NCBI RefSeq assembly: GCF_026914265.1
Contig: NC_069126.1
Span: 77,069,232 to 77,133,231 of the forward strand
Length of the DNA stretch: 64,000 nucleotides
Reading direction: 5' to 3'
Source of the DNA: Mya arenaria
Taxonomy: Eukaryota > Mollusca > Bivalvia > Myida > Myidae
Part shown: one piece after another, positions 27,360-64,000 of the stretch
How positions within the stretch are numbered: position 1 is the first letter of the stretch
Layout of the letters: each line of letters starts with the position of its first letter
The notes under the pieces: model-generated
Databases searched by the model: none
What the model saw: only the letters and a program-made list of their open reading frames with translations
What the model was told of the DNA's origin: nothing
Program-made: the position numbers and the translations under genes

Positions 27360-27518
27360 TTGGCGCCCGGAGAACACTTTCTGTTTCTTTTGCATTGTTC
27401 TTTTTAATTATTATTGAGCTACTTAGAGTTTGAAGTATGTTTTTTATAAAAGGCAATAAAATAACAATCAAACGCCAAGCCTTTGTGATTCATGGCAATC
27501 AACTGTTTTCAAAGAGCA

Positions 27519-27553
27519 ATCTCGGGATGTGAAAGTAGTAAATTTCCGTGAAT
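27519..27553 (+). promoter_or_regulatory. Conserved upstream block of receptor A
   Basis: 'aatctcgggatgtgaaag' followed by 'tagtaaatttccgtg', about 100 bp before the start codon. The same block stands about 100-110 bp before the start codons of receptors B and C, where it reads 'aacttccgt', an ETS-type core on the minus strand (aCGGAAgt). No TATA box is evident. Promoter function is inferred from conservation and position. Confidence 0.35.
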
Positions 27554-27653
27554 AGAAGACTCTGTATCAGTCGTCACAAATACGGCACATATATATTTGA
27601 TCATTATGATAATACTTATGAAAAAGTTTTGAATTAAAAAAAGTGCGTTCAAA

Positions 27654-30600
27654 ATGGACGCCAGGATTTACGTTCCATTATGTTGCACTGGTAAGCGCTT
27701 TAGATATGTATAGATATGTGTTACCTTTGATGATCTTTTAAATTTCTTCTCGTACTTCTATCCCTTCATATTCGTATATATATATGTATTGAATTATACA
27801 CACGAATATGAAGGGATAGTATTACTGTAATTTATATATTACACGAGATAACATAAAAATAAATATAGATTTGCTTTCGACTTTGCTTTTTTGGTTTCCT
27901 GGTTTAAATAATATCCAGTTTTTTAGCAAACGAAATCTGTATACTGTGTTGTTTATGTCTTTATATTATTTGTTTATTTTTTTATAATGTAGTACTTGTA
28001 GTGTTCGTTGGAGATGCATCTGGCTCATGTGGTTCATTGGCAATAATAAAGCCTACGTTTGTGAACAGAACCGTTACCTTGAAATTTATCCCTCGTCATC
28101 GAGGGATCTCAAACATTGCCTGGAAGTACACTAATGAGCGGGATGTAACAAGAGAACATACAGTAAAATGCGTCGAGGAACATTTTCAACAACATGTTGA
28201 GGACGGGCCATACTATCATACTATGATTTTCATTGCAAATAAACATCACAATAATTCGAAATTTCATGTTCAATGTAGCGATGCAAAAGGCAACTCTTCA
28301 TCAAACACTGTGAAGCTACACTTGAATGGTATGTCTAGATATGCATATTACTTTAAGTATATATTTATGCTTATTGGTAATTTTTAAACGTCTAATGTGT
28401 ATAATTGCATCGCATTTAAAGTAAAATGATGTGCATACGCGTAGGTCAAGGATTCCTCATTAGCCTTCTGTCTTCATTTATGAAACTCTGCATCTAAAGT
28501 AAAGAAATACGGATACGTTGAAATATTCTTAATTTCAGAAATCAGGTCTGCGTGTGGCAATCTGGTGCTACTTTCCCCGGAAATAAAATATGGAACAAAT
28601 GTTGAAATAGCTTATTACCCTTCTGACCTTACATTGGCCAAAGAAAACCCTTCGTACAATGAACGTTCATGGTTGAAGTTGAAAGGGTTCTTAAGAGAGG
28701 CCGTGCATCTTCGAAACGACACTTATGAAGAGAGGAAAATATCTGATTATTTGTACACTCTAACCATCTACAATTTTATTGAGAATAAAGCTGGGCCTTA
28801 CGCTTTAAAATGTGGATATACACTTGAAGACACCACAAACCGGTTAGACATACATGTGACAGGTAAGTCTCGATTATTTTTGTTGTATAAGACTGAGCGA
28901 TCACATGCGTACTTTGCTAACTAGCACTTCATTCATGTTTTAAGATAAGCCGCTTATTGGACCAATATTGGATGATTGCGTTTACGGCAATGCAGACACT
29001 ATCATATATTGCAACACAAGTCGTACGACAGGAAAACCCCGTGTGACCTTTTCCATTGGAAGCAAAGTAGTTACAATGCTAGAGAACGAAAAACATCGAG
29101 GAGTATATACAGTTGTACTAGACTCAGACACTTGGAGGGACAATGACGATCATATTGTAACTTGCAAGGTCTCTAACGATGATTATGTACACGACCTGAA
29201 CAGTTCAGCAAAATTGTGTTACATGGGTAATGGCTTCTTTTTCTCAAAGAATATAGCTGAGTATTAAAACATTTGTGCTTAAAGCATAAATCAATATTAG
29301 TTATTTTTAAATAACATCATTTCTAACGTTAACTGTCTAGTTCACATGTGATACTTTTCCCCATATATTGTGTTTGGGTCAATAAGCACTCGAAATCAGT
29401 GCTATTTCGCGTATATAGGAAATGTATTTAGTACTCTGTTACCATAAGTCGTCTCTGTACGTTGTGGTATGAATGGATCAAATGTTGTTTTCTAATTATT
29501 AGAGAAAGGCTCGGACCCTTTTTTGATCATGCCAGAATACATCTACGATGAAAATACAACAGTTGGTTGCGAGGTGTCAAATGTACGACCACCGGAGGTG
29601 ATTGAAATATTGGTAGACAACCAAGCCATTGATGCTATTCAAAAAGACTTATTAAACGAAACGTCAAAAACATTCGTCAGTAAAGCCTCTATATCTATGA
29701 TAGACAAGCATTGGAATGGAAAAGAAATATGTTGCCGTCGAAAATCTACAATTTACGGAAATGTGGAAGCCACCTGTAAAACATTCAACATAAAGTGTAA
29801 GTTCATGTATGGTGAATAATTCCATTCATAAGATTCATTGTGCGTTCGGAGCTTAACATTTTTCCCTATCCATAACTATTTATTCAGTTGCTCTACATTT
29901 CTGTTATTAGATTCGCCGACTGAACTGATCATGAAAGCCACATCAGCTTCATCTAACTCCACCAGACAGTCCATTAATGTTTCTTGTTTTACAACGGAAT
30001 CTAATCCTCCTTGTGGTGTGAATTTGTCAACCAATACCACACAGTTGGTGAACGAATCCTCAAAGGTTTGGAAAGAAAATACGACTATTGGATTCAAGAG
30101 CTATATAAATGCTACTTTTTCGGCCGCAATGATGGTTGGCATAGGAATAATCAATTGCTTTACAACTTGCGACGAAAACTTGTCCAATTTGGACACTAAC
30201 CTTACAATAGATCTTCCAAGTAAGTTACGCCACTTTACAACTTAGAATAATGGAAAGGTTTGAATACCTTTGTTCTTACCCATGTTGTGGCACAAACACA
30301 TAATGTTGCTTATAAACAATTCTCATATGTTTTTGATGATATATTTGTAATGATCTAATTCCATTCCTTTAGGGCAAGGTCAAACTCTTAATATTTCCAT
30401 TTATAAAGTAAGGAATGGCACAACGTATTTTGATTGCACAACGGGCGAAACCCGTGGCATATGCAACGAGAAGAAATGCCCGCGAAATACAACTGAAGCG
30501 ACCGACGACTGGATAATTAAATGCGAACGAACTAATGCTTCTGAAAATGGAACTAAACCACGCCATGAGTCTGTTGCAGGTATGAGTATTTTTGAAAAGA

Positions 30601-32856
30601 AAAATCGCATTTTTTCGTATAACCTTAACATTGGATTTACCATTTGAAAGTGTATATTTTTTCTGGGTTGAATTCTTGTGACTTGATTATGTTTTGGAAT
30701 GTAATAAATGTTAATGTAATGGTTTATTGATCGCTATTGCAGGCGACATCAGTACCCGGTCGTTCAAGCTTCCACTGCAACCAATATTGATAGGAACTGG
30801 AGCGTTTGTTGCTCTCGGTCTATTCGTTGCGTTAGCAAGTAAGTATCTGAGTATCTTAAACTATATAAGTATTTTATTGAGCTTGTTTGTTCGACAGTAT
30901 GTCACACTGCTTTTGACCATGGCACAGTCTGATTCAACACAGTCATGATCCCAGGACACGTTTCAGCGGTATTCTATTTTCAAGAATTCAATATCCCAAA
31001 CGAAGAAAAATATGTTAAGTGCATAAGTACTAATATTGTGCGAAGTACGGGTAACGTTTTCGGTCATTTCATACCATCTAACGCCTGTTTTAGTTAGTAA
31101 ACATATTTTATAAATTAAGATAAGCCTAACGTATGATCTTGTATCGATGTTCCATTAAAGGAACACTGGTCGGGTGGCGTAAAGGTAAAGGTGGCATCAG
31201 GTAAGAACTACGGTAACAACTCGTCTTATAACATTGTCTCAAACGTATTATGAACGTTGTTCTTAATTCATTGATTGAAATTCATTCTAAATTGTTTGAT
31301 AACTTGATATTTTCATGCTCGGATGTAAATTAAGTGCATCTGTTTTATATAGGACTCTGGACAATAAAGATGGTAAGTTAATCTTGTTTTTCAATATGCT
31401 ACAGTGCGAAATCATCAACTCATACATAAAGTATTTGTTTTTTAATTTTAGCGAAATCAAAATAATTATTTCAACCGAACATAAATGTGTCTTTATGTTA
31501 CTTTAGAGGATCCGTTCTTTATCATATGAATACAAATTTAACTTTCAAATGAATCAATACGGTTGAGTTTGAGTTTCATATCACTTGAATTTTGACCCTT
31601 AGTATATACATTTTGATAAAAGAAATATAATGAAATACAGTATCTGTCAAAGTAACGTAGACAATGTTATGAAAATCAGGTAGCCAGAATAACAACATCA
31701 AACCATTATATTATATTACAGTCACACCATCAGCGATCGAAGCTGCCCACTCTCTTGATACAAATGAATATGTAGAAATGCCTGAAACATCAATGCATAT
31801 GAATGCCTCTCACGATTTGGAAGATGATTATGTGGAATTGAAGACACGGGAAGACTCCACGATGGCGCGGAAGCCAATCACAGCTATTGAGGTATTCCAT
31901 AGAAATTGGAGAATCGTAATAAGTTTTCTGCTGTACTTATAGTTTATCATTTTTAAGATAAATAGGTCCATAAATGTAGTACTTTAACTGGCTGCAAACA
32001 TCAACGCAATTTTTAAATTTATTTTGAAAGGAAATAGTTGTTTCCATAAGAATTTCATTCCACTTGCTGTTTAACAGCCTGCATAAACACAGCGGTAGCG
32101 TCTCTCAAAAACAAACGCCCAGAACATTATGTATGAATGGCCCCAATCAAATGAGTTTAAGTCCCTTTAAACATGATGAACTAAAGCTAACTATTTTTAA
32201 AATATCATTTGAGAGACATTCTCCTTCTAACGAGTTTTAAAACGTTGAAAGGAAACTATTTAGATCATCACGATGAACTTTGTGTTTGTTTGTAATTGAG
32301 ATAAAGCTTGTGATCATCACACGTGTGTGCGTACGTGTGTATGTGTGCTAGTATGTATTCGAGTGTGTGTTTACCTGATTTAATGCGTGCGCATTGGTGT
32401 GTGCGCGCGCGCGCGGGCGTGCGTGCGGGCGTGTGTGTGTGTGAATGCTTATCTTGACAGTAGGATTGTTGTACAAGTTTCGAATTCAGAAAGGAGAACA
32501 AAATAAGCTTGTAACTTGGTAAAATAAAACATGATTCTTCAGTCTGTTATGCTTAAAACATGTGCCAGGCTACGTTCTGTTATCAAAAGATTAGTATTTG
32601 TAAACTCTAACATATATGTTTGTTGATAATTCCTAACTCAATCATATATATCACGTTAACATATATGTATAGTTAACAATACCTCTTACAGTCAAAGCAT
32701 GCGAAAAGCGGTCTGATTTACGCGGATCTGGACATTGACCATCTACAGAAAGCCTTTGTCGGTCCGATACCTGGCCCACGACCAAACAGACGAAAAGAAG
32801 CAACGGTGTATCAAGATATAGACTTTTCTAACACAAAACCTGCGAGGCCTCACTAA
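27654..32856 (+). CDS. Receptor A: Ig-like type I membrane receptor with ITIM and ITSM-like tail
   Basis: Twelve coding exons with GT/AG borders: 27654-27690, 27993-28328, 28539-28862, 28945-29226, 29503-29796, 29911-30219, 30373-30579, 30743-30838, 31161-31200, 31353-31372, 31722-31891 and 32692-32856; 759 aa. The signal peptide is split over exons 1-2 (hydrophobic YVPLCCTVLVVFVG). Exons 2-6 (residues about 13-124, 125-232, 233-326, 327-424, 425-527) each carry one Ig-like or Ig-derived domain with phase-1 ends. The clearest are exons 4 and 5 (TIIYC..IVTCKVSN; VGCEVSN..GKEICC). N-glycosylation sites are many. Exon 7 is a Cys-containing stalk and exon 8 the single membrane helix (PILIGTGAFVALGLFVALA). 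The tail has Y665VEM, Y685VEL, L713IYADL (consensus ITIM) and T743VYQDI (ITSM-like), plus a Pro-rich GPIPGPRP. Phosphorylated ITIM/ITSM sites in this class bind SHP-type phosphatases; YxxM can bind PI3K p85. The ligand is unknown. The start is conserved in all three copies. Confidence 0.88.
32310..32450. repeat. (TG)n/(CG)n microsatellite in receptor A intron 11
   Basis: Interrupted gtgtgt/gcgcgc tract in the last intron, including a pure 'gcgcgcgcgcgc' core near 32404. The same intron of receptor B carries a longer homologous tract. Confidence 0.9.
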
Positions 32857-32869
32857 ATGTATTAAGATA

Positions 32870-34310
32870 CGTGTAGTAATGCGTAGATTGTGTCATGACT
32901 CTGGCGAAACAAGATGACTTACATTGCTTAAAAGTATATGGCGTAGATTGTGTTATGACTGTTGCAAAATAGGATGACTTTATTGCTAATATGTATATGG
33001 CGTAGATTGTAATATGGCTGTTGTAAAACAGGATGCCTTTATTGCTTATATGTATATGGCGTAGATTGTGTTATGATTGTTGCAAAAGAGGATTACCCCA
33101 TTGATAATAATATGTATATGGCATATATTGTGTAATGACTGTTGCAAAACAAGATGACTTACATTGCTTTTAAGTATATGGCATAGATTGTGTAATATCT
33201 ATTGTAAAACAGGATGACTTCATTGCTTACATGTAACTCGTGTAGATTGTGTAATAGACTAATGACAATTGCAGAACAGAATGACTTCATGGCTTATATG
33301 TAAATCAGGTAGAGTGTATTATGACTTATGCAGAACAAGATGACAACATTTCTAATATGTTAATCGTGTGGATTGCATTTTGACTGATGCAAAGCAATAT
33401 GAAAACATTGATTATACGTTAATCGCCTAGATTGTCAAATGACTGTTGCAAAAACCGGTGGACTTTATTCCTTATAATATTATGTTAACCGCTTAAATTT
33501 TGAAATGACTGTTGCAAATAGGTGAATCGCTTATATTGTGTAATGACTGTTGTGAACAGGAGGATCGCACTACTTATATATAAACCGCTTATATTGTGTA
33601 ATGACTGTAGCAAGCAGTTGGACCGCACTACTTATATGTGTACCGCTTATAATGTGAAATGGCTGTTGCAAACAGGAGAATCGCACTATTTATATGTACA
33701 CCGCTTATATTGTGTAATGACTGTAGCAAGCAGTTAGACCGCACTACTTATATGTAAACCGCTTATATTGTGTGACGGCTGTTGCAAACATGAGGATCGC
33801 ACTACTTATATGTAAACCGCTTATATTGTGTAATGACTGTTGTAAACATGAGGAGCGCACTACTTATATGTAAATCGCTTATATTGTGTAATGACTGTTG
33901 TAAACATGAGGAGCGCACTACTTATATGTAAACCACTTATATTGTGTGACGGCTGTTGCAAACATGAGGATCGCACTACTTATATGTAAACCGCTTATAT
34001 TGTGTAATGACTGTTGTAAACATGAGGAGCGCACTACTTATATGTAAATCGCTTATATTGTGTAATGACTGTTGTAAACATGAGGAGCGCACTACTTATA
34101 TGTAAACCACTTATATTGTGTGACGGCTGTTGCAAGCAGGAGAAAAGCACTACTTATATGTAAATCGCTTATATTGTGAAATGACTGTTGCAAAAAGGAG
34201 GCTCGCACTGCTAGTATGTATATAAACAAATTATGATGACTATATTGCTTATAAGTAAAACGCGTAGATTGCGTGTTGACTGATGCACAGCAGCATGACT
34301 TCAATGCTTA
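32870..34310. repeat. 58/60-bp minisatellite directly after receptor A (about 24 units)
   Basis: The array begins within about 20 bp of the receptor stop codon. Its first half uses a variant unit 'ggcgtagattgtgttatgac' + 'tgttgcaaaataggatgac' + 'tttattgcttatatgtatat'; the second half uses 'cgcttatattgtgtaatgac' + 'tgttgtaaacatgaggagcg' + 'cactacttatatgtaaa'. It ends in 'gctagtatgtatataaacaa' (34211), a terminal phrase also seen in block B. It probably overlaps the 3' UTR, since no AATAAA comes before it. Not coding. Confidence 0.9.
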
Positions 34311-36552: not shown

Positions 36553-36556
36553 TTAA

Positions 36557-37061
36557 AGGGACTGTACACAAGAACCAAAACAAAAGTTTTTTTCTGTAAC
36601 GAACCTCGGGACAATTATCTAATAGAATGTGTTACGCTTTGATATCATATTTGTAATAAAAGTATCAAAATGTAAAAATAAATTTGTGTCGGAGACCGGG
36701 TTCGAACCCGTGTCGCCAAAATTGCAGTCCAGCGGCGTATCCACTGAGCCACCACGGCTTACTTTTAATTGGTGACATAATTAAATTATACACCTACCTC
36801 GGTAAAATAATGTGATAACACTGACTAGCCAATCACACATAAGGAATACTAGTAAATTCTACCTGCTAGACATACCCAGTTATCTTTTTTAATGGAAATA
36901 ATAAGAAATAACTGCTAAACTTAAATAAACTGTAAACTATGTGGTACTTCAGTTAATAAGTTTCAATGCATTGTACACATCGATGCCAAGTTTATGTCAG
37001 TTTTCGACAATTTTCTCTTTTTTTCGCTATGTTATCATATCATATATGGAGTACAGCCCCT
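36557..37061. repeat. TTAA-flanked MITE carrying a tRNA-like promoter
   Basis: The left end TTAA|agggactgtac (36553-36567) and right end gtacagcccct|TTAA (37051-37065) form an 11-bp inverted repeat with one mismatch, inside a TTAA duplication. In the matching place of block B (about 54440-54460) the flanks are joined without the element, so it inserted into block A after the duplication or was lost precisely. The interior holds a tRNA-like region on the minus strand. No transposase is present. Confidence 0.8.
36688..36758 (-). ncRNA. tRNA-like sequence with A and B boxes inside the MITE
   Basis: On the minus strand: gccgtggtggctcagtggat (A-box-like tggctcagtgg) and, about 35 bp on, a perfect B box ggttcgaaccc. 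The putative anticodon loop ctgcaat would give GCA (Cys), but the stem relies on G-T pairs and the acceptor ends do not pair. It is therefore a tRNA-derived Pol III promoter of SINE type, not a working tRNA gene. Confidence 0.55.
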
Positions 37062-37065
37062 TTAA

Positions 37066-39119
37066 CCACACCGTAAATATCACCAACAGCACACACGATT
37101 AAATGGGCATGTTGTGGGCATCGTATACCTTACATACATTATTTAACTGTAATAAGTATCTATTGCACATCAAAGATTTATGAAAGTTGCGGATAAAAAG
37201 AACTAATGCAGATAAAAAGCCAAGCATTTACAAATTGTACAGCATAATATATGGTATGTGTATAATCGATTTCATTTTTCATTTGTTTTGTATATCTTAT
37301 CAATATTTTACATTCCAATCGTCCACGAACACAACATACCGCTGAATGACAATCCAACTTCACAAACTAGGCCAGATTTAAAACACTTCGGCCCAATTAT
37401 AAAAATTCAAATGACCTGGAAAACTGTACCAACTTCACCATTGCAACGAGTATGAACAAGCAATGTGCTAAAGCAATGTATTTTCAATATTGACATTGAT
37501 AGCAACATCCACATTGATAGATAATGTAAGGGTATATTTATCAGCTTTTTATTTTACCAAAAAAGCAGTTCTGAATTCGGGCAAAACGACGTATCCGATG
37601 ATGGAAATCTTGGGATTCGGAATGTAAATTATTTATGTCATGAGTTCTGACGGCGTCCACATCATCCATTCAAAACAACCATTTGTCTAACTCAACCGTT
37701 TTCGTAACAAAGGCGATGACGAAACTGAAATGCTTGTTTCAAATGAAACGAAACTAATTTTAACCATTGTTAGACTATCTCTATATGATTAGCTTGCATA
37801 TTACCGATATGTAACGTTCTATTAGTTGTCTTTCTCTGCACTGTGTACCTTAAGGTATTTAGAAAACATCAGTGTTAACGTGTACGGTTGCCAGTCTTAT
37901 TTGTTTTAACGAGAATCATCAACGGTGTTTTGCCTGTAATACTAAAAAGCCCTTCGTGTATATTATTAAAAAACATTTTAATCTATAAATCCTCATCGTA
38001 CAAGGGCGGTCAATTTGGGTAAATACATAAACGCTATCGTAGCTAAATGAAAGCATTATCAAGTCTTGAACTTCGCCGTAAACTATCTTATAAACCACAG
38101 CAAGAAAAACCCCATCCATTCCCGCCAATATCCTTCCGCCAATCAATTGTCAACATCGTCTCGCAATTTATACATAAATAGGTTATTGGTCATATGCTTA
38201 TTTGAGGTATCGGAAAGAAATGTTAGACGATGCTCACTCTTATCCAATCAATCGACATTCGGTATTTCATTTCTCATAAACATATTGTTTATTATCACCA
38301 CAAGTACCTTTAAACATCCTAAAACACGATTCCCTCGAGACAAAATGGATCACTTCAAAACAGCCAAACCTGAAATTGTTTTAATATACATTAATTTGTA
38401 AGCTTCTTAGGCACAAAGTGTGTTCGACAAAGTGCCTAACTTATTTCATGGTCTAATTATAATAATTTAATATACTTTCAATGACGTGTCTTGGTTAAAT
38501 ACATTTTAAACCAACCTGTTAATAATTTTTCACACTGGAACAAAAGTTAAAATGGGATGAAAAGAAGCGAATACAGCAGTACCGTAGTTACTAAACATTA
38601 TTTTAGTTGCCCCTTATCATTTCTTTGCCCAACATGTCAAACGTCATGTTCAAGTCAACATTTTTTGAAAACGTTGTTCGCACAGCTTATTGTTAGTCAG
38701 TTGGTCAAGGCTGTGGTAACCTTTATTCGACGGGTTTCTTATAAACAAGATTTTTTAATCTATGGTCCCCAAACCTAGAATATCGGTCACAAACAAAAGA
38801 TGACCGCCATAAATTTCAGATCAGTCCGTCAAAAGTCAAGATGGAAGATACCCATTTAATATTTAAATTGGTAATGCATTAGTTTCCAAAAGGCGGTCAA
38901 CACATTCAATTCCATGGACTCCTTGCTATTTGAGTGGTTAACAGGTCAAATTTCGAGATAACTGCCACATTTAATACTTTGCTGACATTTATGCCTTCAT
39001 GTTCATGTTTCTGACAAAGCCACGTCCAGTTACATGCATCACTTCAGTGAATAATGAGTAGATTACGTACAATTACCAATTGTACATAAATAACAAAAAC
39101 AAATACAAACATCCAGTTC
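37066..39119. other. Intergenic part of block A, paralogous to about 54.45-55.89 kb
   Basis: No intact gene. A 111-codon open frame at 38066-38401 is not preserved in the block B copy, so it is probably not coding. 38557-38990 is shared with block B and looks like an old repeat ('gatgaccgccataaattt', 'aaaggcggtcaacac'). Confidence 0.4.
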
Positions 39120-40720
39120 AGATGCATAATTGTTAACCATAACCTCTCTATTTAGCAGTATAACAAAAGGCTCGTCATTGCGATTTGCCTGCTCCTACAA
39201 TGGCAGTGACAATGGCATTGTAAACTACTCGTGTATCTGGTACCAAAACAGGCGAAGTGTTGTAACCATTCAGCTGTCACCTTGCAAGTCATATGGAAGA
39301 CCGGCACTTGCCGCAGACACGTTTGATCTTGCTTGTGGCACGTTTACTTGCAGAAATATTACCCGAGAAATCCTAAAGACGAACTCTCCTGTGCTGCAAT
39401 CATTGGAGTGGGACATATGCCTAGTCAAAATTTAATAACAGTGGATGTTCTATGTAAAAGCTGCAATAATGATTTACAGTATCGTTTTCAGAATATTTTT
39501 ATGAGAATAAGATTTCTCAAACATTTTGCAGTGCTTTCGCCATCCTCATTCAAATGTTTACCACCATTAGCACCGGTTGACCTTCTTCAGTTGGACAATA
39601 GTTTTCTAACCTAACGACCAGGATACAGAGTTTATTATATGGGAAATGTCATCGCGATTAGAACGTTAGTTATGAGAAAGATTGTGTCGAACATAAGTGA
39701 TCCACCGTTTGTTGGCCTTCAGCCAGATCCTGCTGTGAATGATTTTTACTGTGATTCTATAATTAATTTCAATTCAGCATCAGGAATGTCACTTTATATC
39801 TAAATGGGAATAAGTGGAAGTCTACTGTCAAAGCTGAAGGTCAAGAATGTCATAGCAATGTAATAACGATTGATGTAGATGGTTATGACTTAAATGATTC
39901 TTAAATGGTCTCATGGGTTGTCTTTTATTTGTCAAGCTTTTTATGACTGACTGGGATCGACTGCATTATATACCCCAAAAGCGTTGTTGCCTTTTAACAT
40001 GTGTTATTAACAATGAATTATCGTTTCTCTTGTTTAAAATATGTGTTGGGTACACATGAGTATACAAATTAATTATTTGTTTGACTCAGAACTCTGTGAA
40101 CGACAAATCATTTTCACGATGGGTATCGAAGAAATTATTTTTTTAGCTATTGACACTAGCGTGTAAGTGCAAACGTAAAATGTTAAGGTTTTGGATGGGT
40201 TTTCGAATTAGCCCGGCGTGCAACATTATAACATGTTGAAGATGTTTATTTAAACGGATCATCCAGTGTCTGCTCATCTTATGACGCTTTCCTAGGACCT
40301 AATATGACAATGTACACCTATGGATGTTTAAACCTGACAAAGATTGTATTACCAATCCTAAAAATCATGCTTCAGAACACAGGCATTCGTTGATTTTTCC
40401 AAAATTGAATTCATTTCCATTTTTTTTGGTTTTTAGTTTCTTTCTTTTATTCATCACGGATCTTTTCTTTTTACAGTGCAAGCTATTTCTGTGGTATTAT
40501 GACTTCCGGTGATGGACGCATTTACTGTTTTAGAGAACAGCTCGTTTCTTCTAGAATGCATCGTACCAAATTCACTGCCACACCAGAGTTTATCAGCAAA
40601 TCATTGTTTGCGTATAATAACTGTAAAATCTGTCACTAAAATAAAATACTATAAAAATTGTCAGAACGGTCAATCATTTAACAGAGACTATATGATATTT
40701 TATGTTTTAGAGTCTGTAAA
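39120..40720 (+). pseudogene. Decayed Ig-like gene relic, block A
   Basis: The first piece (about 39140-39460) reads as an Ig V-like domain: RFACSYNG, then YSCIWYQNRR (core Cys and Trp), LSPCKSYG, DLACGTFTCRN. A one-base deletion shifts the frame before ELSCAAIIGVG-like sequence. Further homologous pieces (about 39540-39900, 40090-40400, 40480-40720) contain several stops. A second copy of the same relic is at 55890-57610 with different lesions. It does not match the exons of receptors A-C closely, so it is a separate Ig-superfamily gene that died in, or before, the duplications. No transmembrane or tail exon was found. Confidence 0.6.
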
Positions 40721-41930: not shown

Positions 41931-41939
41931 TGGACACCT

Positions 41940-42788: not shown

Positions 42789-42822
42789 CAATCTCGGAAT
42801 GTGAAAGTGGTAAACTTCCGTA
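42789..42822 (+). promoter_or_regulatory. Conserved upstream block of receptor B
   Basis: 'aatctcggaatgtgaaagtg' followed by 'gtaaacttccgt', about 105 bp before the start codon. It contains ACTTCCGT, an ETS-type core. Shared with the other two copies in sequence and distance. Confidence 0.4.
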
Positions 42823-42925
42823 AATTAATAAAGTTGTTTAAGTCATTTTTTTATTCTGTTCATATATAATTGTTCCTGATAATGATACTGCATCTTTGTA
42901 TTTAAGCAATCAATGCACGTACAAA

Positions 42926-45900
42926 ATGGATGCCAGTTTTTACGTTATTTTATGTTGCCTTGGTAAGCATTTTCAATATATAAACAAGTATGTGTTACTT
43001 TTGACAAAGTATAACATTTGTTTATTTTCTTGAAGAACATCAAATTAAAACTCTCTATGTTTAATGAAAATATGTCTTAGAATTTGCAGCTTTGCTATGT
43101 GTTAAATAATCTCAGACGATATCAGTCTTAATGACCTTGATATTAAAATGTGCTAGTCGATAACTTTGTTTATTTCCTAAAATATGTATATATATTTATT
43201 AAATAAATAGTATCTAAGATATATACATAGTTTTATATATATTTATATTCATAATGCTTAGAGGAAATACACGTCGTCAATTGATCCCGTGTGGATCAAG
43301 AACAATAACGAAACAGATTGAGAACAGAAACGCAACCTTCAAATAACACCATTATTCATCATTTTGCCATAAAATGAAATGGTGTACTATATTTATTATG
43401 CTTTTTCAATTTAATTCCAGTTCTTGTCGGAGAGGGTCTTCTGCTACCAAATTCCTGTGGAACACTTACCGTTATGAAACCAACGTTTATGAATAGAAAC
43501 GTCACCTTGAAATTTGTCGCTCAACATCGATGGATTTCAAACATTGTCTGGAAGTATGCTTTGGAGTTTGGTGCCGGGTTACAAACGTTATATGGCTTGG
43601 AGGAACGATCAACTTTTGACGATGGGGTCTACTATGATACTATGTCGTTCGTCGCTTATAAACATTGCAATAATTCGAAATTTCATGTTCAATGCAGCCA
43701 TGAGAATATAACATCAAACACTGTGAAGCTACACTTACAAGGTATGTATACACATACATATCTTTATTTACCGGTACTTTTTATACCGGTAAACGAAACC
43801 ATTCCTTTTGCATTATTCCGTTTATTTGTCTTAAAAAATATATCTCCGTCTTGAAATATCTAAAATTTCAGAAATCAGTCCAAACTGTGGCAATCTAGTG
43901 CTGTTATCCCCTGAAGTAAAATATGGAAAACATGTTGCAATCGGTTATTATCCTCCTGATACATTGGTCAAAGAGAACGATTTGTACCATGAACGTACAT
44001 GGCTGAATGGGCTTGAACATCCCGTACATCTTCGAAATGACACTTACAAAGAGAGAAAAATGTCTGATTATTTGTACACTCTAAACATATACAATTTCAC
44101 GGAGAGCAAAGCTGGGCGTTACGCTTTGAAGTGTGATGAATCAATTGTATCAAGCACAAACTGGTTACACAAACATGCTACAGGTAAGTCTCGGCTCCTT
44201 TTTTCTATTCAATTTAGCGATAATTACAGATGGAACATATTTTTACTTTTCCTGATTTTCTTTGGCATATTGACTTGGATAAGAGTGAGGTTGTGCACAC
44301 ATACTGGTTTAAACCCCCAGTACATTTACATTTTACTGACCGTTACAAGGCGGTACCTAACAATCCTTGATAAACATACCTAGTTTTTTTTTATATATAG
44401 TATGTATACATTGTGCTGTTTGTTGAGTTTTGTGCTGTTCTTCCATGTTTCTTGTTGTTTTTTTATGTTCTATGTCTTTGGCGTTTACTCAGTGCAATTA
44501 AACCGGGTTTATGTTTAAACGTTTTTGCTACTGAGCTTGTTTCTGTAGTTTTTCGCATAAATATTGTTATTTTAACTAGCATTTCACTCATGTTTCAGAT
44601 AAGCAGCTAATTGGACCCATACGGGATGAATGTGTTTACGGCAATGCAAACACTACCATTTATTGCAACACAAGTCGTACGACAGGAAAAACTCATGTGA
44701 CCCTTTCCATTGGGAGTGAAGCAATTACAATGACAGAAGACGAAAGTCAGCCCGGGTTATATGCGGTTGGACTCGACGTAAACACTTGGAGGGACCATGA
44801 CGGTGATATTGTAACTTGCAATGTCTCTAACGATAATTATATACACGACCAGAAAAGTTCAGCAAAATTATTTTACATGGGTAATTTCTATTTTTATTTT
44901 GCTCAAAGAGGAATGTGGCTGCGCATATATATTTTTGTGATAAGAGCAGAACTGAGTAATAGTCATTTCTCAATAGTTTGTATTAGTTCAAATCACACCA
45001 GTTGTTTTTTATAATGTGTATAAAGTATTTAAAAGAAGCAAGAGTTCTGATATGTAATCCTTTGTAAATCATTTTACAAGTTGAAATAAGTTGTATCTGT
45101 ATGCCATGGCATGCATGGATACAATGTTGTTGTCTTTAATTAGAGAAAGGTTCGGATCCTATTTTGAACATGCCAGAATACATCCACGATGAAAATACGA
45201 CAGTCAGTTGCGAAGTGTCTAATGCACGACCACCTGCGTCGATTGAAATATTGGTAGACAATCAAGCCATCATTGAAGCTGTTAAAAGTGATATATTGGA
45301 CGAAACGTCAAAACCATTCGCTTGTAAAGCTTCGATATTGAAGATAGACAAGAATTGGAATGGAAAGGAAATATGTTGTCGTAAAAATTCTGTGTTTAAC
45401 GGACTTTTAGAAGCCACCTGTAAAACATTAAACATAAAGTGTAAGTTCATGTATGGTGTACAATTCAATTCATACATTTAATCATGCAGTTTTCCCTATA
45501 CATGTTTATTATCATTATTATTTTTTATTTATTTGTTCTTCATATTTTTATAAGATTCTCAAATGAAATTGATTATTAAGTCTTTGCGCTTCAAATGACC
45601 AAATATTCAATTAAAGCAACTTGTTTTACGAGCATCCAATCCTCCATATGTAATAACCTTAACATAAATCTTCCAAATAAATATCACTTCTTTACAACAT
45701 TGGGACGCTTGAAAAAGTTTATTCTGAAACAAGATGTGTCACATAAACACAAACAAATGTAACTAATAAGTAATACATATTTGTTTTTAAAGTTTCTTTG
45801 TAATGATCTGTTTCCATCATTTCAGTGCTTACTCAACCCTTGACCTTTTCCCTCGATGAAGTACAGAATAGTACTCCGTATTTTGATTCCACGACAGGCG

Positions 45901-48337: not shown

Positions 48338-48349
48338 AAATAATAAGAT

Positions 48350-51300
48350 ACGTGTAGAAACGCGTAGATTGTGTCATGAAACAGGATGACAACATTGCTT
48401 ATGTGTAACTCGTGTAGATTGTGTTATGACTGTTGCAAAATAGGATGACTTTATAGCTAATATGCATATGGCGTAGATTGTGTTACGACTGTTGCAAAAT
48501 AGGATGACTTTATAGCTTATATGTATATGGCGTAGATTGTGTTATGACTGTTGCAAAACAGGAAATCTTCATGATTTAGATGTAAATCAGGTAGATTGTC
48601 TTATGAATTAAGCAAATCAAGATTGACAACATTGATTATGTGTTAATCGCGTAAATTGTAAAATGACTATTGCAAAAACCGTTGGACTGCATTGTTATAT
48701 GTGAACCGTATATAATGTGTAATGATTTTTATAAATAACAAAAACACACACCATTTGTATGTAAACCGCTTATACTGTGTAATGACTCTGTTGCAAGCAG
48801 GAGAACGCAATACTTATAGTTACCCGCTTAAACTGTGTAATGACTGTTGCAAACATGAGTACCGCACTACTTATATGTAAACGGCTTATATTGTGTAATG
48901 ACTGTTTTAAGCAGGAGGATCGCACTACTTTTATGTAAAACGAATATATTGTGAAATGACTGTTGCATGCAGGAGGATCGCACTACTTATATGTAAATCG
49001 CTTATATTGTGTAATGACTGTTGCAAGCAGGAGGATCGCACTACTTATATGTAAACCGCTTATATTGTGAAATAACTGTTGCAAGCAGGAGGATCGCACT
49101 ACTTATATGTAAACCGCTTATATTGTGTAATGACTCTGTTGCAAGCAGGAGGATCGCACTACTTATATGTAAAATGCTTATATTGTGAAATGACTCTGTT
49201 GCAATCAGGAGGATCGCACTACTTATATGTCAATCGCTTATATTGTGTAATGACTGTTGCAAGCAGGAGGATCGCACTACTTATATGTAGACCGCTTATA
49301 TTGTGTAATGACTGTTGCAAGCAGGAGGATCGCACTACTTATATGTAGACCGCTTATATTGTGTAATGACTGTTGCAAGCAGGAGGATCGCACTACTTAT
49401 ATGTAGACCGCTTATATTGTGTAATGACTGTAGCAAGTAGGAGGATCGCACTACTTATATGTAAAATGCTTATATTGTGAAATGACTCTGTTGCAAGCAG
49501 GAGGATCGCACTACTTATATGTAAACCGCTTATATTGTGTAATGACTCTGTTGCAAGTAGGAGGATCGCACTACTTATATGTAAATCGCTTATATTGTGA
49601 AATGACTGTTGCAAGTAGGAGGATCGCACTACTTATATGTAAATCGCTTATATTGTGTAATGACTGTTGCAAGCAGGGGGATCGCACAACTTATATGTAA
49701 ACCGCTTATATTGTGAAATGACTCTGTTGCAATCAGGAGGATCGCACTACTTACATGTAAATCGCTTATAGTGTGTAATGACTGTTGCAAGCAGGAGGAT
49801 CGCACTACTTATATGTAAATCGCTTATATTGTGTAATGACTGTTGCAAGTAGGAGGATTGCACTACTTATATGTAAACCGCATATATTGTGAAATGACTG
49901 TTGCAAGTAGGAGGATCGCACTACTTATATGTAAATCGCTTCTATTATGTAATGACTGTTGCAAGCAGGAGGATCGCACTACTTATATGTAAATCGCTTA
50001 TATTGTGAAATGACTGTTGCAAGTAGGAGGATCGCTCTACTTATATGTAAATCGCTTAATTGTGTAATGACTGTTGCAAGCAGGTGGATCGCACTACTTA
50101 TATGTAAATCGCTTAAATTGTGTAATGACTCTTTTGCAAGCAAAAGGACCGCACTACTTATATGTAAACCGCTTATATTGTGTAATGACTCTTTTGCATG
50201 CAGGAGGATCGCACTACTTAAATGTAAATCGCTTATATTGTGTAATGACTCTGTTGCAAGCAGGAGGATCGCACTACTTATATGTAAAACGCTTATATTG
50301 TGAAATGACTGTTGCAAGTAGGAGGATCGCACTACTTATATGTAAATCGCTTATATTGTGAAATGACTGTTGCAAGTAGGAGGATCGCTCTACTTATATG
50401 TAAATCGCTTATATTGTGTAATGACTATGTTGCAAGTAGGAGGATCGCACTACTTATATGTAAATCGCTTAAATTGTGTAATGACTCTTTTGCAAGCAAA
50501 AGGACCGCACTACTTATATGTAAACCGCTTATATTGTGTAATGACTCTTTTGCATGCAGGAGGATCGCACTACTTAAATGTAAATCGCTTATATTGTGTA
50601 ATGACTCTGTTGCAAGCAGGAGGATCGCACTACTTATATGTAAACCGCTTATATTGTGAAATGACTGTTGCATGCAGGAGGAACGCACTACTTATATGTT
50701 AACCGCTTATGTTGTGTAATGACTCTGTTGCAAGCAGGAGGATCGCACTACTTATATGTAAACGGCTTATATTGTGTAATGACTCTTTTGCAAGCAGGAG
50801 GACCGCACTACTTATATGTAAACCGCTTATATTGTGTAATGACTCTTTTGCATGCAGGAGGATCGCACTACTTAAATGTAAATCGCTTATATTGTGTAAT
50901 GACTCTGTTGCAAGCAGGAGGATCGCACTACTTATATGTAAACGGCTTATATTGTGAAATGACTGTTGCATGCAGGAGGATCGCACTACTTATATGTAAA
51001 CCGCTTATATTGTGTAATGACTCTTTTGCATGCAGGAGGATCGCACTACTTAAATGTAAACCGCTTATATTGTGTAATGACTCTTTTGCATGCAGGAGGA
51101 TCGCACTACTTATATGTAAATCGCTTATATTGTGTAATGACTCTATTGCATGCAGGAGGATCGCACTACTTATATGTAAACGGCTTATATTGTGAAATGA
51201 CTCTGTTGCATGCAGGAGGATCGCACTACTAATATGTAAACCGCTTATATTGTGTAATGACTGTTGCATGCAGGAGGAACGCACTACTTATATGTAAACC

Positions 51301-52160
51301 GCTTATATTGTGTAATGACTCTGTTGTAAGCAGGAGGACCACAGTACTTATATGTAAACGGCTTATATTGTGTAATGACTCTTTTGCATGCAGGAGGATC
51401 GCACTACTTATATGTAAACCGCTTATATTGTGTAATGACTCTTTTGCAAGCAGGAGGACCGCACTACTTATATGTAAACCGCTTATATTGTGTAATGACT
51501 CTTTTGCATGCAGGAGGATCGCACTACTTAAATGTAAATCGCTTATATTGTGTAATGACTCTGTTGCAAGCAGGAGGATCGCACTACTTATATGTAAATC
51601 GATTATATTTTTAAATGACTGTTGCAAGCAGGTGGATCGCACTACTTATATGTAAACGGCTTTTATTGTGTTATGACTGTTGAAAGCAGGAGGACCAAAC
51701 TACTTATATGTAGACCGCTTATATTATTTTATAAATGTGGCAAGGAGGAGGATCGCACTACTTATATGTAAATCGCTTATATGATGTAATGACTGTTGCA
51801 AAAAGGAGGCCCGTACTGCTAGTATGTATATAAACAAACATGATGACTATATGTCTTATAATTAAAACGCGTAAATTGTGTAATGACTGATGCAAGCAGG
51901 AGGATCGAACTACTTATATGTAAATCGCTTATATTATGTAATGACTGTTGCAAAAAGGAGGCCTGTACTGCTAGTATGTATATAAACAAACATGATGACT
52001 ATATTGCTTATAAGTAAAACGCGTAAATTGTGTAATGACTGATGCAAAGCAGCATGACTTAAATGCTTACAAGTTAAACGCATGTATTTTGTAATGCATG
52101 TGACTACATATGTCAATAGTTAAGTTTGTGTAATGACTGTAGCAAAACAGGAGGACCAAA
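48350..52160. repeat. Expanded 58/60-bp minisatellite after receptor B (about 60 units)
   Basis: Starts right after the receptor stop codon, as in block A, but is about 2.4 kb longer. Units are 'cgcttatattgtgtaatgac' + 'tgttgcaagcaggaggatcg' + 'cactacttatatgtaaat' (58 bp), or 60 bp where 'tgactgttgc' becomes 'tgactctgttgc'. Sixty-base units are multiples of three, so runs of them stay open in several frames on both strands (for example plus 50668-51195). A roughly 357-bp higher-order unit, marked by 'cactacttaaatgtaaatcg' and 'cttttgcaagcaaaaggacc', repeats at about 50.1 and 50.5 kb. The terminal phrase 'gctagtatgtatataaacaa' occurs twice (51820 and 51970). Non-coding. Confidence 0.93.
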
Positions 52161-55889: not shown

Positions 55890-57610
55890 ATTTCAGAGGC
55901 GGAATTATTAACCATAACCTCTCTATTAAGCCGTGTAACGAAAGGCTTGTCAACGCAATTTGCTTGCTCCTACAATGGCATTTGCAATTGCATTTTAAAC
56001 TACTATTGTATCTGGTATCAAAACAGGCGAAAAAATAACAAATAATTAACAAATGTTAACGCAAACATTCATTTTAGATGCAGAATTGTTAACCATAAAC
56101 TCTCTATCAAGCCGTGTAACAAAAGGCTTGTCAACGCAATTTGCTTGCTCCTACAATGGCAATGATAACGACATTGTAAACTACTATTGTACCATTAAGC
56201 TGTCACCTTGCAAGTCATTTGGAAGACTAGCACTTGCCGCAGACGTTTGATTTTATTTGTGGTACGTTAACCTGCAGAAATATTACCCAAGAAATCATAA
56301 AAGACGAACTCTCCTGTGCTGCAATCATTGGAGTGGGATTAATGCCTAGTCAGAATTCCATAACAGTGGATGCCCTATGTAAGAACCACAATATGATTTA
56401 CAGTATCGTTTTCACAATATATTTTTATCAGAAAAGCTTTTTCAAACATTTGTATTTTGCAGTGCCTTTGTCACTCTCATTCAAATGTTTACCACCGTAA
56501 GCACCGACTGACCTTGATCAGTTGGACAATAGTTATCTAACTTTACGACCAGGATACAGAGTAAATTATATGTGAAAAGTCATCGCTATTGGAACGTTAG
56601 TTGTGATGAAGATTGTGTCGAACATAAGTGATCCACTGTTTGCTGGCCTACAGCCAGATCCTGCGATTTACTGCGATTCTATAATCAATTAAGCATCAGG
56701 AATATCACTTTATACTTTTATGGGAGTAATTGGAAGTCTACTGTCCATGCTGAAGATTACGACTTTTATATCAATGTAATAACGATTGATGTAAATGGTT
56801 ATGACTTAAATGCTATTAAATGGTCTCATGAGTTATCTTTTATTTGTCACGCTTTGTTTAACTGACTGGGATCGACTGCATTATATACCCAATAAGCGTT
56901 GTTGCCTTTTAAAATTTGTTATTAACAATGAATTATCGTTTATTTTGTTTAAAATATGTGTTGGGTACACATGAGTATACAAATTAATTATTTGTTTGAC
57001 TCAGAACTCTGTGAAAGACCAATCATTTTCACGATGGGTAGCGAAGAAAGAAATGTCCAGCCATTGACACCAGCGTGTAAGAGCAAACGTACCGATGTCA
57101 AAGGTTTTGGATGGTTTTTCGGATTAGCCCGGCGTACAACCTTACAACATGGTGAAGATGTTTATTTAAACGGATCATCCAGTGTCTGCTCATCTTATGA
57201 CACTTTCATAGAACCTAACATGACAATGTACATCTACGAATTTTTAAACCTGACAATGATTGTATTACCGATCCGAAATATTATGCTTCAGAACACAGGC
57301 ATTCGTTGATTATTCCAAAATTGAAATCATTTCCATTTGTTAGGTTTTTAGTTTCTTTCTTTTATTCATCATTGATCTTTTCTTTTTACAGTGCAAGCTA
57401 TTTCTATGGTATTATGACTTCTTGTGATGGACGCATATACTGTTTTAGAGAACAGATGGTTTCTTCTAGAATGCATCGTACCAAATTCAATGCCACGCAG
57501 TGTAGCAGACGGTATGCCATCCTATAAAATACCACAGCTATGTGAATTTATATCATGGACCTACTGGAATTCAGCAAGAGCTTATCAGCAAATTATTGAT
57601 TGTGTATAAT
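55890..57610 (+). pseudogene. Decayed Ig-like gene relic, block B
   Basis: Homologue of the relic at 39120-40720. The V-like domain start is present twice in direct tandem (about 55890-56035 and 56065-56230: KGLSTQFACSYNG, then NYYC). In the second copy the segment with the core Trp is missing and the frame shifts before DFICGTLTCRN (about 56238). The later piece at 57005-57309 keeps one open frame with CERPIIFTMGSEERN and SSSVCSSYDTFIEPNM behind a good acceptor (gactcag), in better shape than in block A. A last piece is at 57424-57607. Stops and frameshifts make the whole unlikely to be translated, though a short spliced remnant cannot be excluded. Confidence 0.6.
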
Positions 57611-59770: not shown

Positions 59771-60176
59771 CCTCCTTAGAAGGTCATCCTCCCTATCTCT
59801 GTGACGGTGGTTTTCCCTTTCGACAATTTCATTTAATTAAATAAAAACTTTCTGTCATATGCAAGATGACATACCATTCTGTTTATAATATCGGATTCAA
59901 ATAGTTTATGTTAGAAGGGATTTATGTTGGTTCAAATCATGACTCAGGGTTGGCAGGGTTCCATTCTGTATTATGCCTATTCCATCCTATTGCCCCACTA
60001 TTATGCTTTCTACTTAAGCTTTAATTATTATTGCGTCCGGAGAACATGACTGTGTTCTTGTTTAGATATTTTCAATTAATCTTGGGGTTTTAAAAAATCA
60101 AATGAAATGTCTATATAAGGCAAACAACCAAACGTCAATCCCCCGTTACTCATAGCAAGAAACTGTTGTCAATGAA

Positions 60177-60210
60177 CAATCTCGGAAAGTGAAAGTGGTT
60201 AACTTCCGTC
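60177..60210 (+). promoter_or_regulatory. Conserved upstream block of receptor C
   Basis: 'aatctcggaaagtgaaagtg' followed by 'gttaacttccgt', about 108 bp before the start codon. Contains ACTTCCGT as in receptor B. Confidence 0.4.
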
Positions 60211-60316
60211 AATTGATAAAGTTTCTTAAGTCATTGTTAATACTGTTCATATATAATTGTTCCTGATAATGATACTGCATTAATATTTGTATTTTAGCGA
60301 TCAATGCACGTACAAA

Positions 60317-60591
60317 ATGGATGTCAGCTTTTATGCTATTTTATGTTGCCTTGGTAAGCACTTTCAATATATAAACAGAAATGTGTTACTTTTGACAAAG
60401 TATTACATTTGTTTATTTTCTCGAATAGCATCAAGGGTTAAAACTATCTAACTTAAATATGTTTTTGAGTTTGCCGCTTTGCCATGTGTTAAATAGTCTC
60501 AGCGATATCAATCTTAATGACTTGGTATTATAATGTGCTAGCCGTTAACTATGTTCATTTCCCGAAATATATATATATATTTATATATACG

Positions 60592-60659
<68 letters not shown>

Positions 60660-60691
60660 TAAATTACAGCTAAGATAAACACATTTAATTC

Positions 60692-60782
<91 letters not shown>

Positions 60783-63700
60783 CATAATGCTTCGAGGAAA
60801 TACACGTCGTCAATTGATCCCGTGTGCAACAATTACAAAAATGAAACCATCGATTGGAAACAGAAACGCAACCGTCAAATAGGAATGATAGGAATGAATT
60901 AATTAAACTAGCTTTGTATATTAAAGAAGCTCTTGTTATTCGAAATAATTTGTTGAATGTTGAAAGATAAATGTTTAGTTCAACCTCCAATTTTTGTAAC
61001 ACATAGTATGCTGCTTTTGTCACACATAGTATGTTGTGTTATTTAAAAAAAGTATTTACCATTACATGTTGTATATACACGTTGACATGCTATATGAACA
61101 TATATATGTTTATGTAGACGATGCACATTATACAAGTCTTAATACAAATCTCTGTATGTCTTTAAATCTCATCATTTCGTCATAAAATGAAATGTTGTAC
61201 TAATTTTTTTATGCCTTTTCATTTTTATTCAAGTTCTTGTCGGAGAGGGTCGTGCGCTACCCAATTCATGTGGAACACTTACCGTTATGAAGCCAGCGTT
61301 TATGAATAGAAACGTCACCTTGAAATTTGTTGCTCAACATCGATGGATTTCAAACATTGTCTGGAAGTATGCTTTGGAGGATGGCGCCGGGTTACAAACG
61401 TTACATGGCTTAGACGAACGATCAACTTTTCACGATGGGGTCTACTATGATACTATGTCATTCGTCGCCAATAGACGTTGGAATAATTCGAAAGTTCATG
61501 TTCGATGCAACCATAAGAATGAAATATCAAACACTGTAAAACTACACTTACAAGGTGTGTATGCATATGCTTTGTTACTTTAGCGATACTTTTTATACCG
61601 GTTAACGTTACCTTGCCTTTTGCATTATTTCTTTTATCTATCTTTGGATATCTATTTCTACGTCTTACAATAATAAGCGATACGTTAATATATCTTTACT
61701 TTCAGAAATCCGTCCAATTTGTGGCAATCTGGTGCTGCTATCCCCTGAAATAAAATATGGAAAAAATGTTGAAATCGCTTATTACCCTTCTGATACAGTG
61801 GTCAAAGAGAACAATTTGTATCATAAACGTACGTTGCTGAATGGTCTTTTACAGCCCGTGCATTTTCAAAATGACACTTACAATGAGAGAAAAATGTCTG
61901 ATTATTTGTACATTCTAAAGATATACAATTTCATGGAGAGCAAAGCTCGACGATACGGTTTGAACTGTGGTAAATCAATTGTATCAATCACAAACTGGTT
62001 ACACATACATGCAACAGGTAAGTCTCGGCTCCTTTTTTCTATACAATTTAGCGATAATTACAGATGGAACATATGTTTACTATTCCTGGTTTTCTTTGAC
62101 ATATTGACTTGTTATTTTAACTAGCATTTCACTCATGTTTCAGATAAGCAGCTAATTGGGCCCAAAAGGGGTGGATGTGTTTACGGCAATTCAAACACTA
62201 CCATTTATTGCAACACAAGTCGAACGACAGGAAAAGCTCATGTGACCCTTTCCATTGGGAGTGAAGAAGTTTTAATGACAGAAGACGAAAGTCAGACCGG
62301 TGTATATGCGGTTAAACTGGACGTAAACACTTGGAGGGACCATGACGGTGAGGTTGTAACTTGCAAGGTCTCTAACGATCATTATAAACACGACCAGAAA
62401 AGTTCAGCTAAATTATTTTACATGGGTAATTTTTTCTTTTTATTTTTCTCAAAGCGGAATGTGGCTGCGCGTATATATTTTTGTGATTAGAGCAGATGTA
62501 AATAATAGTCATATCTCAATAACGAAGTTTGTATTAGTTCAAAACACACCAATTGTTGTTTTATAATGCGTTTAAAAGAAGCAAGAGTTCTGATATATAA
62601 TCCTTTGTAAATCATACTTAACAGTTTTACAAGTTGAAATAAGTTGTATCTGTATGTCATGGCTTGCATGGATACAATGTTGTTGTCTTTAATTAGAGAA
62701 AGGTTCGGATCCTATTTTGAACATGCCAGAATACATCCACGATGAAAATACGACAGTCAGTTGCGAAGTGTCTAATGCACGACCACCTGCGTCGATTGAA
62801 ATATTGGTAGACAACCAAGCCATCAGTGAAGCTGTTAAAACAGATGTATTAGACGAAGCGTCAAAAACATTCGCTAGTAAAGCTTCGATATTGAAGATAG
62901 ACAAGAATTGGAATGGAAAGGAAATATGTTGTCGTAAAAAATCTGTATTTAACGGACTTTTAGAAGCCACCTGTAAGACATTAAACATAAAGTGTAAGTT
63001 CATGTATGGTGTACAATTTAATTCATACATTTTATCATGCAGTTTTCCCTATACATGTTTATTATCATTTTTATTTTTTATTCATTTGTTCTTCATTTTT
63101 TTATATAAGATTCTCAAATGAAATTGATTATAAAGTTTTTGCGCTTCAAATTACCAAATATTCAGTTAATGTAACTTGTTTTACGATCATATCCAATCCT
63201 CCATATGTAATAACCTTTACATAAATCTTCCAAATAAATATCACTTCTATACAACATTGGGACGCTTGAAAAAGTTTATTCTGAAACAAGATGTGTCACA
63301 TAAACACAAACAAATGTAACTAATAAGTAATACATATTTGTTTTTAAAAGTTTCTCTGTAATGATCTGTATCCATCATTTCAGTGCTTACTCAACCCTTG
63401 ACCTTTTCCCTCGATGAAGTACAGAATAGTACACCGTATTTTGATTCCACTACAGGCGAAACCGATCTAAAAGGTAGTTCAATGAATAAAATACGTGCAA
63501 ATGGTTTATGTAACGGGACGAAATGCGAGTCAAGTACAAATATAGCGACAAAAGGCGGGATAAAGAAAGACAAAACAACAAATTCTAGGGAAAATGGAAC
63601 TAAATTCCGCCAAGAATATACGTCTGCTGCAAGTATGGAGTATTTCAAACTTTTTCATATAACCTATGTCCATAACATTTGACATTGTTTATTTTCTGTG

Positions 63701-63870
63701 TTGATTAAGTTTGATTTAAAGATATTTTCGACACTGACGCCTTTTCAAGTCATGTTTCTTGATCGCTATTACAGGCGACAACAGTACACGGTCGTTCAAG
63801 TTTTCATTGGAGCCAATTTTGATAGGAACAGGAGCATTTGTTGTTCTCTGTATTTTCGTTGCGTCAGCAA
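60317..63870 (+). CDS. Receptor C: Ig-like membrane receptor, 5' part (runs off the window)
   Basis: Exons in the window: 60317-60353, 61234-61554, 61706-62017, 62144-62425, 62697-62993, 63384-63632 and 63775-63870, with the same lengths and phases as the first seven of receptor B (531 codons seen). Signal peptide FYAILCCLVLVG, four Ig-like domains, the same stalk (YFDSTTGETDLKG) and membrane helix (PILIGTGAFVVLCIFVASA). Exons 5 and 7 are nearly identical to B; exons 2-3 show more amino-acid changes (for example KARRYGLNCGKS for KAGRYALKCDES). All splice sites are intact and no stop is seen, so it looks functional so far. The cytoplasmic exons with the tyrosine motifs lie to the right of the window and are expected, not seen. 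Confidence 0.85.
60567..60779. repeat. Two (AT)n microsatellites in receptor C intron 1
   Basis: Nearly pure AT runs at about 60567-60653 and 60697-60779, separated by a 40-bp unique piece. Much longer than in receptor B. Minus-strand frames of IYIYIY peptide are artefacts. Confidence 0.95.
63110..63233 (+). pseudogene. Relic of exon 6 (fifth Ig-like domain) in receptor C
   Basis: Same shortened remnant as in receptor B, with the same internal loss and the same destroyed donor (ccaa|ataaat). The decay therefore happened once, in the ancestor of B and C, after it split from A. Confidence 0.8.
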
Positions 63871-64000
63871 GTAAGAAGTATAGTGTCTTTAATTATTTAA
63901 GAATTTTATTGAGGACTTTTGTTTCTCATATTACTCAAATCGCATAGACAAGTACCGTTTTCAGTGATTCTCTTTTTTTCTATTTTCAATTATTCTGAAT

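Follow-up and report, generated by a model that had tools for sequence, protein, structure and literature searches.

A tandem cluster of Ig-like receptor genes with ITIM/ITSM-type tails in the bivalve Mya arenaria

What kind of receptor is encoded by the tandemly repeated genes in this stretch of the Mya arenaria genome, and are their products inhibitory immune receptors? We examined a window of 64,000 nucleotides, this term denoting the whole stretch of DNA that was analysed; coordinates are positions within it, and all the receptor genes lie on the + strand. The window carries three tandem receptor genes (A, B and C) with one common exon plan, and we think that they probably constitute a small, expanding family of germline-encoded, single-pass inhibitory (checkpoint-like) Ig receptors. 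Their features are given below, where D1 to D5 are the ectodomain exons and t1 to t4 the tail exons.

27654-32856, + strand: gene A, 12 exons, 759 aa, unbroken frame, GT-AG introns
27654-27690, + strand: A exon 1, start of the hydrophobic leader (counterparts at 42926 in B and 60317 in C)
27993-28328, + strand: A exon D1, Ig-like, with a Cys before strand A and a Trp at the strand C position (B-copy model, alignment)
28539-28862, + strand: A exon D2, with a CGxL...P pattern common with D1 (alignment)
28945-29226, + strand: A exon D3, C2-set-like (Pfam C2-set_2, E 0.012, under the curated cut-off)
29503-29796, + strand: A exon D4, C1/C2-set-like Ig (Pfam C1-set; three-row profile against PDB)
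29911-30219, + strand: A exon D5, judged Ig-like from its position alone; B and C have no intact copy
30373-30579, + strand: A stalk exon
30743-30838, + strand: A transmembrane exon, hydropathy 2.21, 19-residue uncharged span
31161-31372, + strand: A tail exons t1 (31161-31200) and t2 (31353-31372)
31722-31891, + strand: A tail exon t3, with NEYVEM and DDYVEL
32692-32856, + strand: A tail exon t4, with the ITIM LIYADL and the ITSM TVYQDI, then the stop
42926-48337, + strand: gene B, 11 exons, 661 aa
42926-42962, 43421-43741, 43872-44183, 44599-44880, 45144-45440, 45826-46074, + strand: B exons 1-6
46233-46328, 46624-46663, 46809-46828, 47180-47346, 48173-48337, + strand: B exons 7-11
45525-45707, + strand: relic of the D5 exon in B, without its middle (blastn)
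60317-64000, + strand: gene C, first 7 exons, 531 aa up to the window edge
60317-60353, 61234-61554, 61706-62017, 62144-62425, 62697-62993, 63384-63632, 63775-63870, + strand: C exons
63078-63237, + strand: relic of the D5 exon in C, without its middle (blastn, tblastn)

The first-pass annotation of this DNA had described three adjacent copies with intact splice sites and frames in A, B and the visible part of C, and the gene models agree with it, the introns being GT-AG and the frames open over 759, 661 and at least 531 aa, respectively. It had opened gene A at 27360; the start lies at 27654. Its proposal of one domain per phase-1 exon was likewise confirmed, since exons D1-D5, the stalk and the membrane exon are in phase 1 at both ends and each domain occupies a single exon. 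The short exons t1 (40 bases) and t2 (20 bases) shift the phase and then restore it, and t3 ends in phase 0, which is compatible with t4. The count of four to five domain exons also stands, with five in A and four in B and C, as D5 persists in the latter two only as a two-ended relic. The leader exon of gene C (60317-60353) was detected by tblastn 880 bases upstream of its D1 exon; a short stretch resembling the start of D1 (60823-60879, tblastn E 0.026) precedes the true D1 exon of this gene.

Elsewhere in the window we found HTH and DDE_3 pieces of a Tc/mariner-like transposase, split over two open frames (20358-21325), an open frame with an RRM_1 match above the Pfam cut-off (14666-14989, E 1.1e-5) that probably represents an exon from an adjacent gene, and a minus-strand tRNA-Cys (GCA) between A and B (36686-36758). 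A duplicated Ig-like coding remnant lies between the receptor genes (39100-39500 and 56040-56440), one frame of which gave a weak match to Pfam Ig_2 (E 0.079). A second gene at this place was considered and rejected: the Ig-like stretch differs in indels and frames between its two occurrences and resembles an IgSF fragment in decay. The Pfam scan of other open frames covered 108 of the 155 listed; most of the other 47 overlap or adjoin the receptor genes.

Evidence that the receptor ectodomains are genuine coding sequence came from the substitution pattern, for which Fisher tests were run on rounded NG86 counts. With D1-D4 pooled, nonsynonymous change was lower than synonymous change in A-B (Ka/Ks 0.51, p 4e-6), A-C (0.47, p 1e-7) and B-C (0.60, p 0.017), and the ratio was below 1 in 12 of 12 single-domain comparisons (range 0.39-0.80). 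The four domain exons of A and B are 70-83% identical; the introns between them and the leader intron reach 54-65%. On the substitution pattern, a chance origin of the ectodomain is rejected. Positive selection is unsupported, given the 12 domain ratios below 1 and a ratio of 2.3 in t4 that derives from 1.5 synonymous changes.

The younger pair behaved differently at D2 and D3. Between B and C these exons are 87.8% and 91.5% identical, and the D2-D3 and D3-D4 introns 96.0% and 92.2%; no departure from neutrality was detected for B-C D2 (p 0.29) or B-C D3 (p 0.61), nor for the A-B stalk (p 0.37). As D2 and D3 change at the rate of the neighbouring introns, diversification or relaxed constraint is possible in this pair, and the intron-like rate could reflect either of these or patchy gene conversion. 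The same observation bears on a sceptical explanation, namely that the genes are decaying or unexpressed duplicates whose frames are open merely because the duplication is recent. The loss of exon D5 in B and C, the decaying Ig-like fragment held in the same tandem unit between the genes, and a conservation of B-C D2 and D3 no higher than that of the introns beside them would all fit such decay. It is nonetheless very improbable in our estimation, since the pooled D1-D4 exons are constrained in three of three pairs and no stop occurs in the modelled exons of the three genes.

In each receptor a hydrophobic leader precedes the Ig-type domains, four in B and C and five in A, which are followed by a stalk and a single membrane span. 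In A the span, PILIGTGAFVALGLFVALA, has a hydropathy of 2.21 and no charged residue, and a type I, single-span topology with an uncharged span was assigned from hydropathy and reading of the sequence only.

The tail was analysed in A and B, that of C lying beyond the window edge. It is 131 aa long in A and 130 aa in B and contains four tyrosines in each, all within Yxx[hydrophobic] motifs: NEYVEM (NEYVDM in B) and DDYVEL (DNYVEL in B) in t3, followed by LIYADL and TVYQDI in t4, the last two at 32713 and 32803 in A and at 48194 and 48284 in B. The consensus ITIM and the ITSM-like motif that had been noted before are present in both tails; the two t3 motifs had gone unmentioned. Neither exact string, LIYADL or TVYQDI, recurs elsewhere in the window in any of the six frames. 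By the definitions given in PMC8631942, LIYADL conforms to the ITIM consensus [SIVL]xYxx[ILV] and TVYQDI to the ITSM consensus TxYxx[VI]. The same paper describes the alanine after the ITIM tyrosine as conserved in several SHP1-recruiting receptors, BTLA (IVYASL) being an example, and LIYADL has Ala at this same pY+1 position. The ITIM and ITSM tyrosines are 30 residues apart; a switch motif of the ITSM type accompanies the ITIM in many ITIM-bearing receptors, though not in all. When the tails were shuffled (100,000 times each), an ITIM and an ITSM occurred together in 0.3% of cases for A and 0.2% for B, and at least four YxxPhi motifs in 0.1%.

The YxxM motif binds PI3-kinase. YVEM may add a docking site for this enzyme, so the tail is perhaps mixed and not purely inhibitory. 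Selection on the tail is uneven: Ka/Ks between A and B is 0.85 for the whole tail; t3 is the exon with detectable constraint (0.34, p 0.036), and t4 showed none (changes at roughly 12 of its 128 nonsynonymous sites and at 2 of its 38 synonymous ones, p 0.53). Taken further, the receptors might be mixed or activating, with the YVEM/YVDM and YVEL motifs of t3 recruiting PI3-kinase or other SH2 proteins and dominating the signal, and t4 being dispensable or missing, as when the t3 donor is read through. The constraint on t3 is in line with this, as is the fact that read-through would add 16 codons in A (31892-31942) and five in B (47347-47364) before a stop, with AATAAA or ATTAAA found at 32523 in A and 47968 in B. 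These extensions, however, end differently in the two genes and include neither an ITIM nor an ITSM, whereas t4 keeps both motifs letter-identical in A and B over 165 bases free of indels. We regard a predominantly mixed or activating receptor as quite improbable.

The inhibitory reading depends on t4, which in our judgement is very probably a real exon. In its favour are a proper acceptor and phase in both genes, a GC content among the highest 4-7% of windows, and a codon score that places the A copy within the best 6% among 5004 open frames. Against it, the codon score of the B copy is middling (top 18%), and the A-B identity of 92.1% barely exceeds the 87.9% of the flanks. An ITIM plus ITSM pair by itself is not rare, as eight stop-free stretches of at least 30 codons in the window contain one, two of these eight being the tail exons; 40 order-1 Markov simulations gave a mean of 2.0 such stretches and a maximum of 5. 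Also on the negative side, no AATAAA or ATTAAA was found in the 1444 bases past t4 of A or the 663 bases past t4 of B. Furthermore, A and B are not independent witnesses for t4, since homogenisation has affected this portion of the tail, and a chance origin of the exon keeps a small residual probability.

The history of the copies explains what is meant by homogenised. With a D1-D4 Ks of 0.135, B and C form the younger pair; A is older, its D1-D4 Ks relative to the other copies being 0.44-0.51 (0.44 for A-B). The synonymous divergence of t4 between A and B is 0.04 against 0.44 for D1-D4 (p 0.0002), the t3-t4 intron is 85% identical, and, the tandem repeat apart, the DNA further downstream aligns piecewise at 75-93% identity. 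The tails of A and B are much more similar than their ectodomains, and the simplest reading is that they were exchanged or underwent unequal crossing-over during duplication. A tandem repeat of 58-60 bases directly follows A (32881-34220) and B (48379-52052), the stretch after B being far longer.

An Ig-like ectodomain had been proposed for these receptors as a whole; membership of the IgSF was recovered by sequence for D4 only, and is weak for D3 and modelled for D1. The three-row D4 profile matched beta-2-microglobulin (E 0.00043) and SYG-2 (E 0.0013) in PDB, followed by weaker matches to other beta-2-microglobulins (0.015-0.083), Dscam (0.32) and an antibody chain (0.36), and in Pfam D4 matched C1-set under the curated cut-off (E 0.0074). 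The whole A protein gave a single PDB match, that of beta-2-microglobulin onto D4 (E 0.13). For D3 the sole Pfam match was C2-set_2, under the curated cut-off (E 0.012 in A, 0.017 in B), and the best PDB profile match was a TCR alpha chain (E 0.031).

D1 of A and B matched no Pfam Ig model, V-set included, and no sequence match of D1 to Ig was obtained. The structure model of its B copy is an eight-strand beta sandwich with a mean pLDDT of 75 (62-67 in the other four models). In Foldseek this model returned nothing at E <= 0.001; among the 50 matches listed, the first was the sandwich domain of a purple acid phosphatase (E 0.0073), then came mostly MHC class II, MHC class I and CD147 chains, and TM scores to the query were 0.40-0.54. 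The D2 model (pLDDT 45) is too poor for a judgement of its fold, and D5 had no Pfam match. The PDB search gave nothing notable for D1 (best E 0.23), D2 (0.64) or the tail (0.67), and NCBIfam returned no match to either the ectodomain of B or the tail of A.

In all three copies D1 and D2 have a Cys in the CGxL...P pattern near the start and a second one about 80 residues on, which in the D1 model falls at the end of strand F; neither domain has a Cys at the strand B place. From these positions, the early Cys and the strand F Cys would form a pair. The common CGxL...P pattern, seen by alignment, hinted that D1 and D2 arose by duplication of one another, an idea that we rejected after hhalign (P 0.047) and shuffle tests in which two of nine pairs stood out (Z 3.9 and 3.0) and the rest reached 0.9-1.5. 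D3 and D4 look related by the shuffle test (Z 0.2 to 5.5 over nine pairs), the profile comparison extending over 11 aligned columns only.

Together, these results support in part the earlier proposal of an expanding inhibitory receptor family: intact, duplicated type I receptors, Ig-type domains and the ITIM/ITSM tail all stand, and inhibition itself is a prediction from sequence. In such receptors the copy-divergent ectodomain would bind a self, allogeneic or microbial ligand, after which Src-type kinases would phosphorylate the tail tyrosines. The ITIM/ITSM pair, with its 30-residue spacing and the Ala after the ITIM tyrosine, could then recruit an SHP-2/corkscrew-type phosphatase with tandem SH2 domains that would damp immune-cell activation, for instance in haemocytes. 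Tandem duplication would supply new copies, while tail exchange or unequal crossing-over would keep the signalling exons of A and B alike as the ectodomains diverge. More tentatively, and as a possibility that we hold with considerable doubt, this may be a lineage-specific checkpoint family in which the outer two domains are a new Ig variant, with a pre-strand-A/strand-F Cys pair and no strand B Cys, joined to a compound YVEM/ITIM/ITSM tail that is homogenised even as the exons for recognition diversify, those of the youngest pair at the intron rate.

If the inhibitory reading is correct, the locus would represent a tandemly expanding family of inhibitory receptors in an invertebrate without adaptive immunity, and a case of signalling exons kept alike while recognition exons diverge, which is the pattern of vertebrate paired receptors. 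It predicts haemocyte expression, recruitment of SHP-2 and copy-number variation.

Has such a receptor been described? A full-text search of the open-licence literature did not recognise this exact family. Relatives of the B leader plus D1-D4 were sought in viral contigs (3 pattern matches, 0 confirmed) and prokaryotic genome contigs (23 pattern matches, 0 confirmed); the missing relatives tell little, as these collections are viral and prokaryotic. In the oyster Crassostrea gigas, CgIgIT2 has five Ig domains and a membrane span according to PMC11999971, a review of 2025. Titles cited there present it as an inhibitory receptor and IgIT signalling as inhibiting the haemocyte antimicrobial response, while the text of the review names its motif an ITAM, at odds with the cited title. 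By these descriptions, CgIgIT and CgIgIT2 resemble the Mya receptors as IgSF receptors with several Ig domains, a membrane span and a tail bearing tyrosine motifs. CgSiglec-1, which according to PMC5877582 binds sialic acid, LPS and PGN and has an inhibitory role, is similarly an invertebrate Ig-domain protein with a reported inhibitory function, but it has two I-set domains in place of the four to five domains found here. Tandem expansion of oyster innate immune genes is reported in PMC4346834, in whose main text the term ITIM does not appear.

IgSF families with ITIM-type tails also occur at allorecognition loci, those of Botryllus (FcoR, 53 loci so far) and Hydractinia (Alr), as reported in PMC12065747; by description, both are comparable to the Mya genes as invertebrate IgSF families with tails of the ITIM type. 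This precedent lends weight to the idea that the Mya genes encode adhesion or allorecognition receptors, whose Ig ectodomains would bind themselves or allelic ligands and whose tails would report contact in the style of PECAM-1, Alr or FcoR instead of restraining antimicrobial responses. FcoR differs in its domains, which are V, sushi and two C2; among the ectodomain exons scanned with Pfam, D1-D5 from A and D1-D4 from B, none matched sushi. Sequence separates neither account from the other, and their mechanisms overlap; we consider a role in adhesion or allorecognition rather unlikely and continue to favour inhibition.

The Siglecs, PECAM-1/CD31, BTLA and PD-1 of vertebrates share with the Mya receptors an Ig ectodomain, one span and an ITIM followed by an ITSM, and the IVYASL of BTLA resembles LIYADL. 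In contrast to these vertebrate receptors, with which no sequence evidence of common descent was obtained, the Mya tails carry the additional YVEM and YVEL motifs, and D1 has no V-set match, which in the comparison of A and B with Siglecs, characterised by an arginine that binds sialic acid within an N-terminal V-set domain, must be read with the fact that D1 is too divergent for any Pfam Ig model. PD-1 differs further in having a single V-type domain against the four to five ectodomain exons of A, B and C. In summary, the design of these receptors is precedented in invertebrates, the oyster included, by CgIgIT, CgIgIT2, CgSiglec-1, Botryllus FcoR and Hydractinia Alr, and what may be novel in Mya are the domains with displaced Cys, the compound homogenised tail and the fast change of the recognition exons in the youngest pair.
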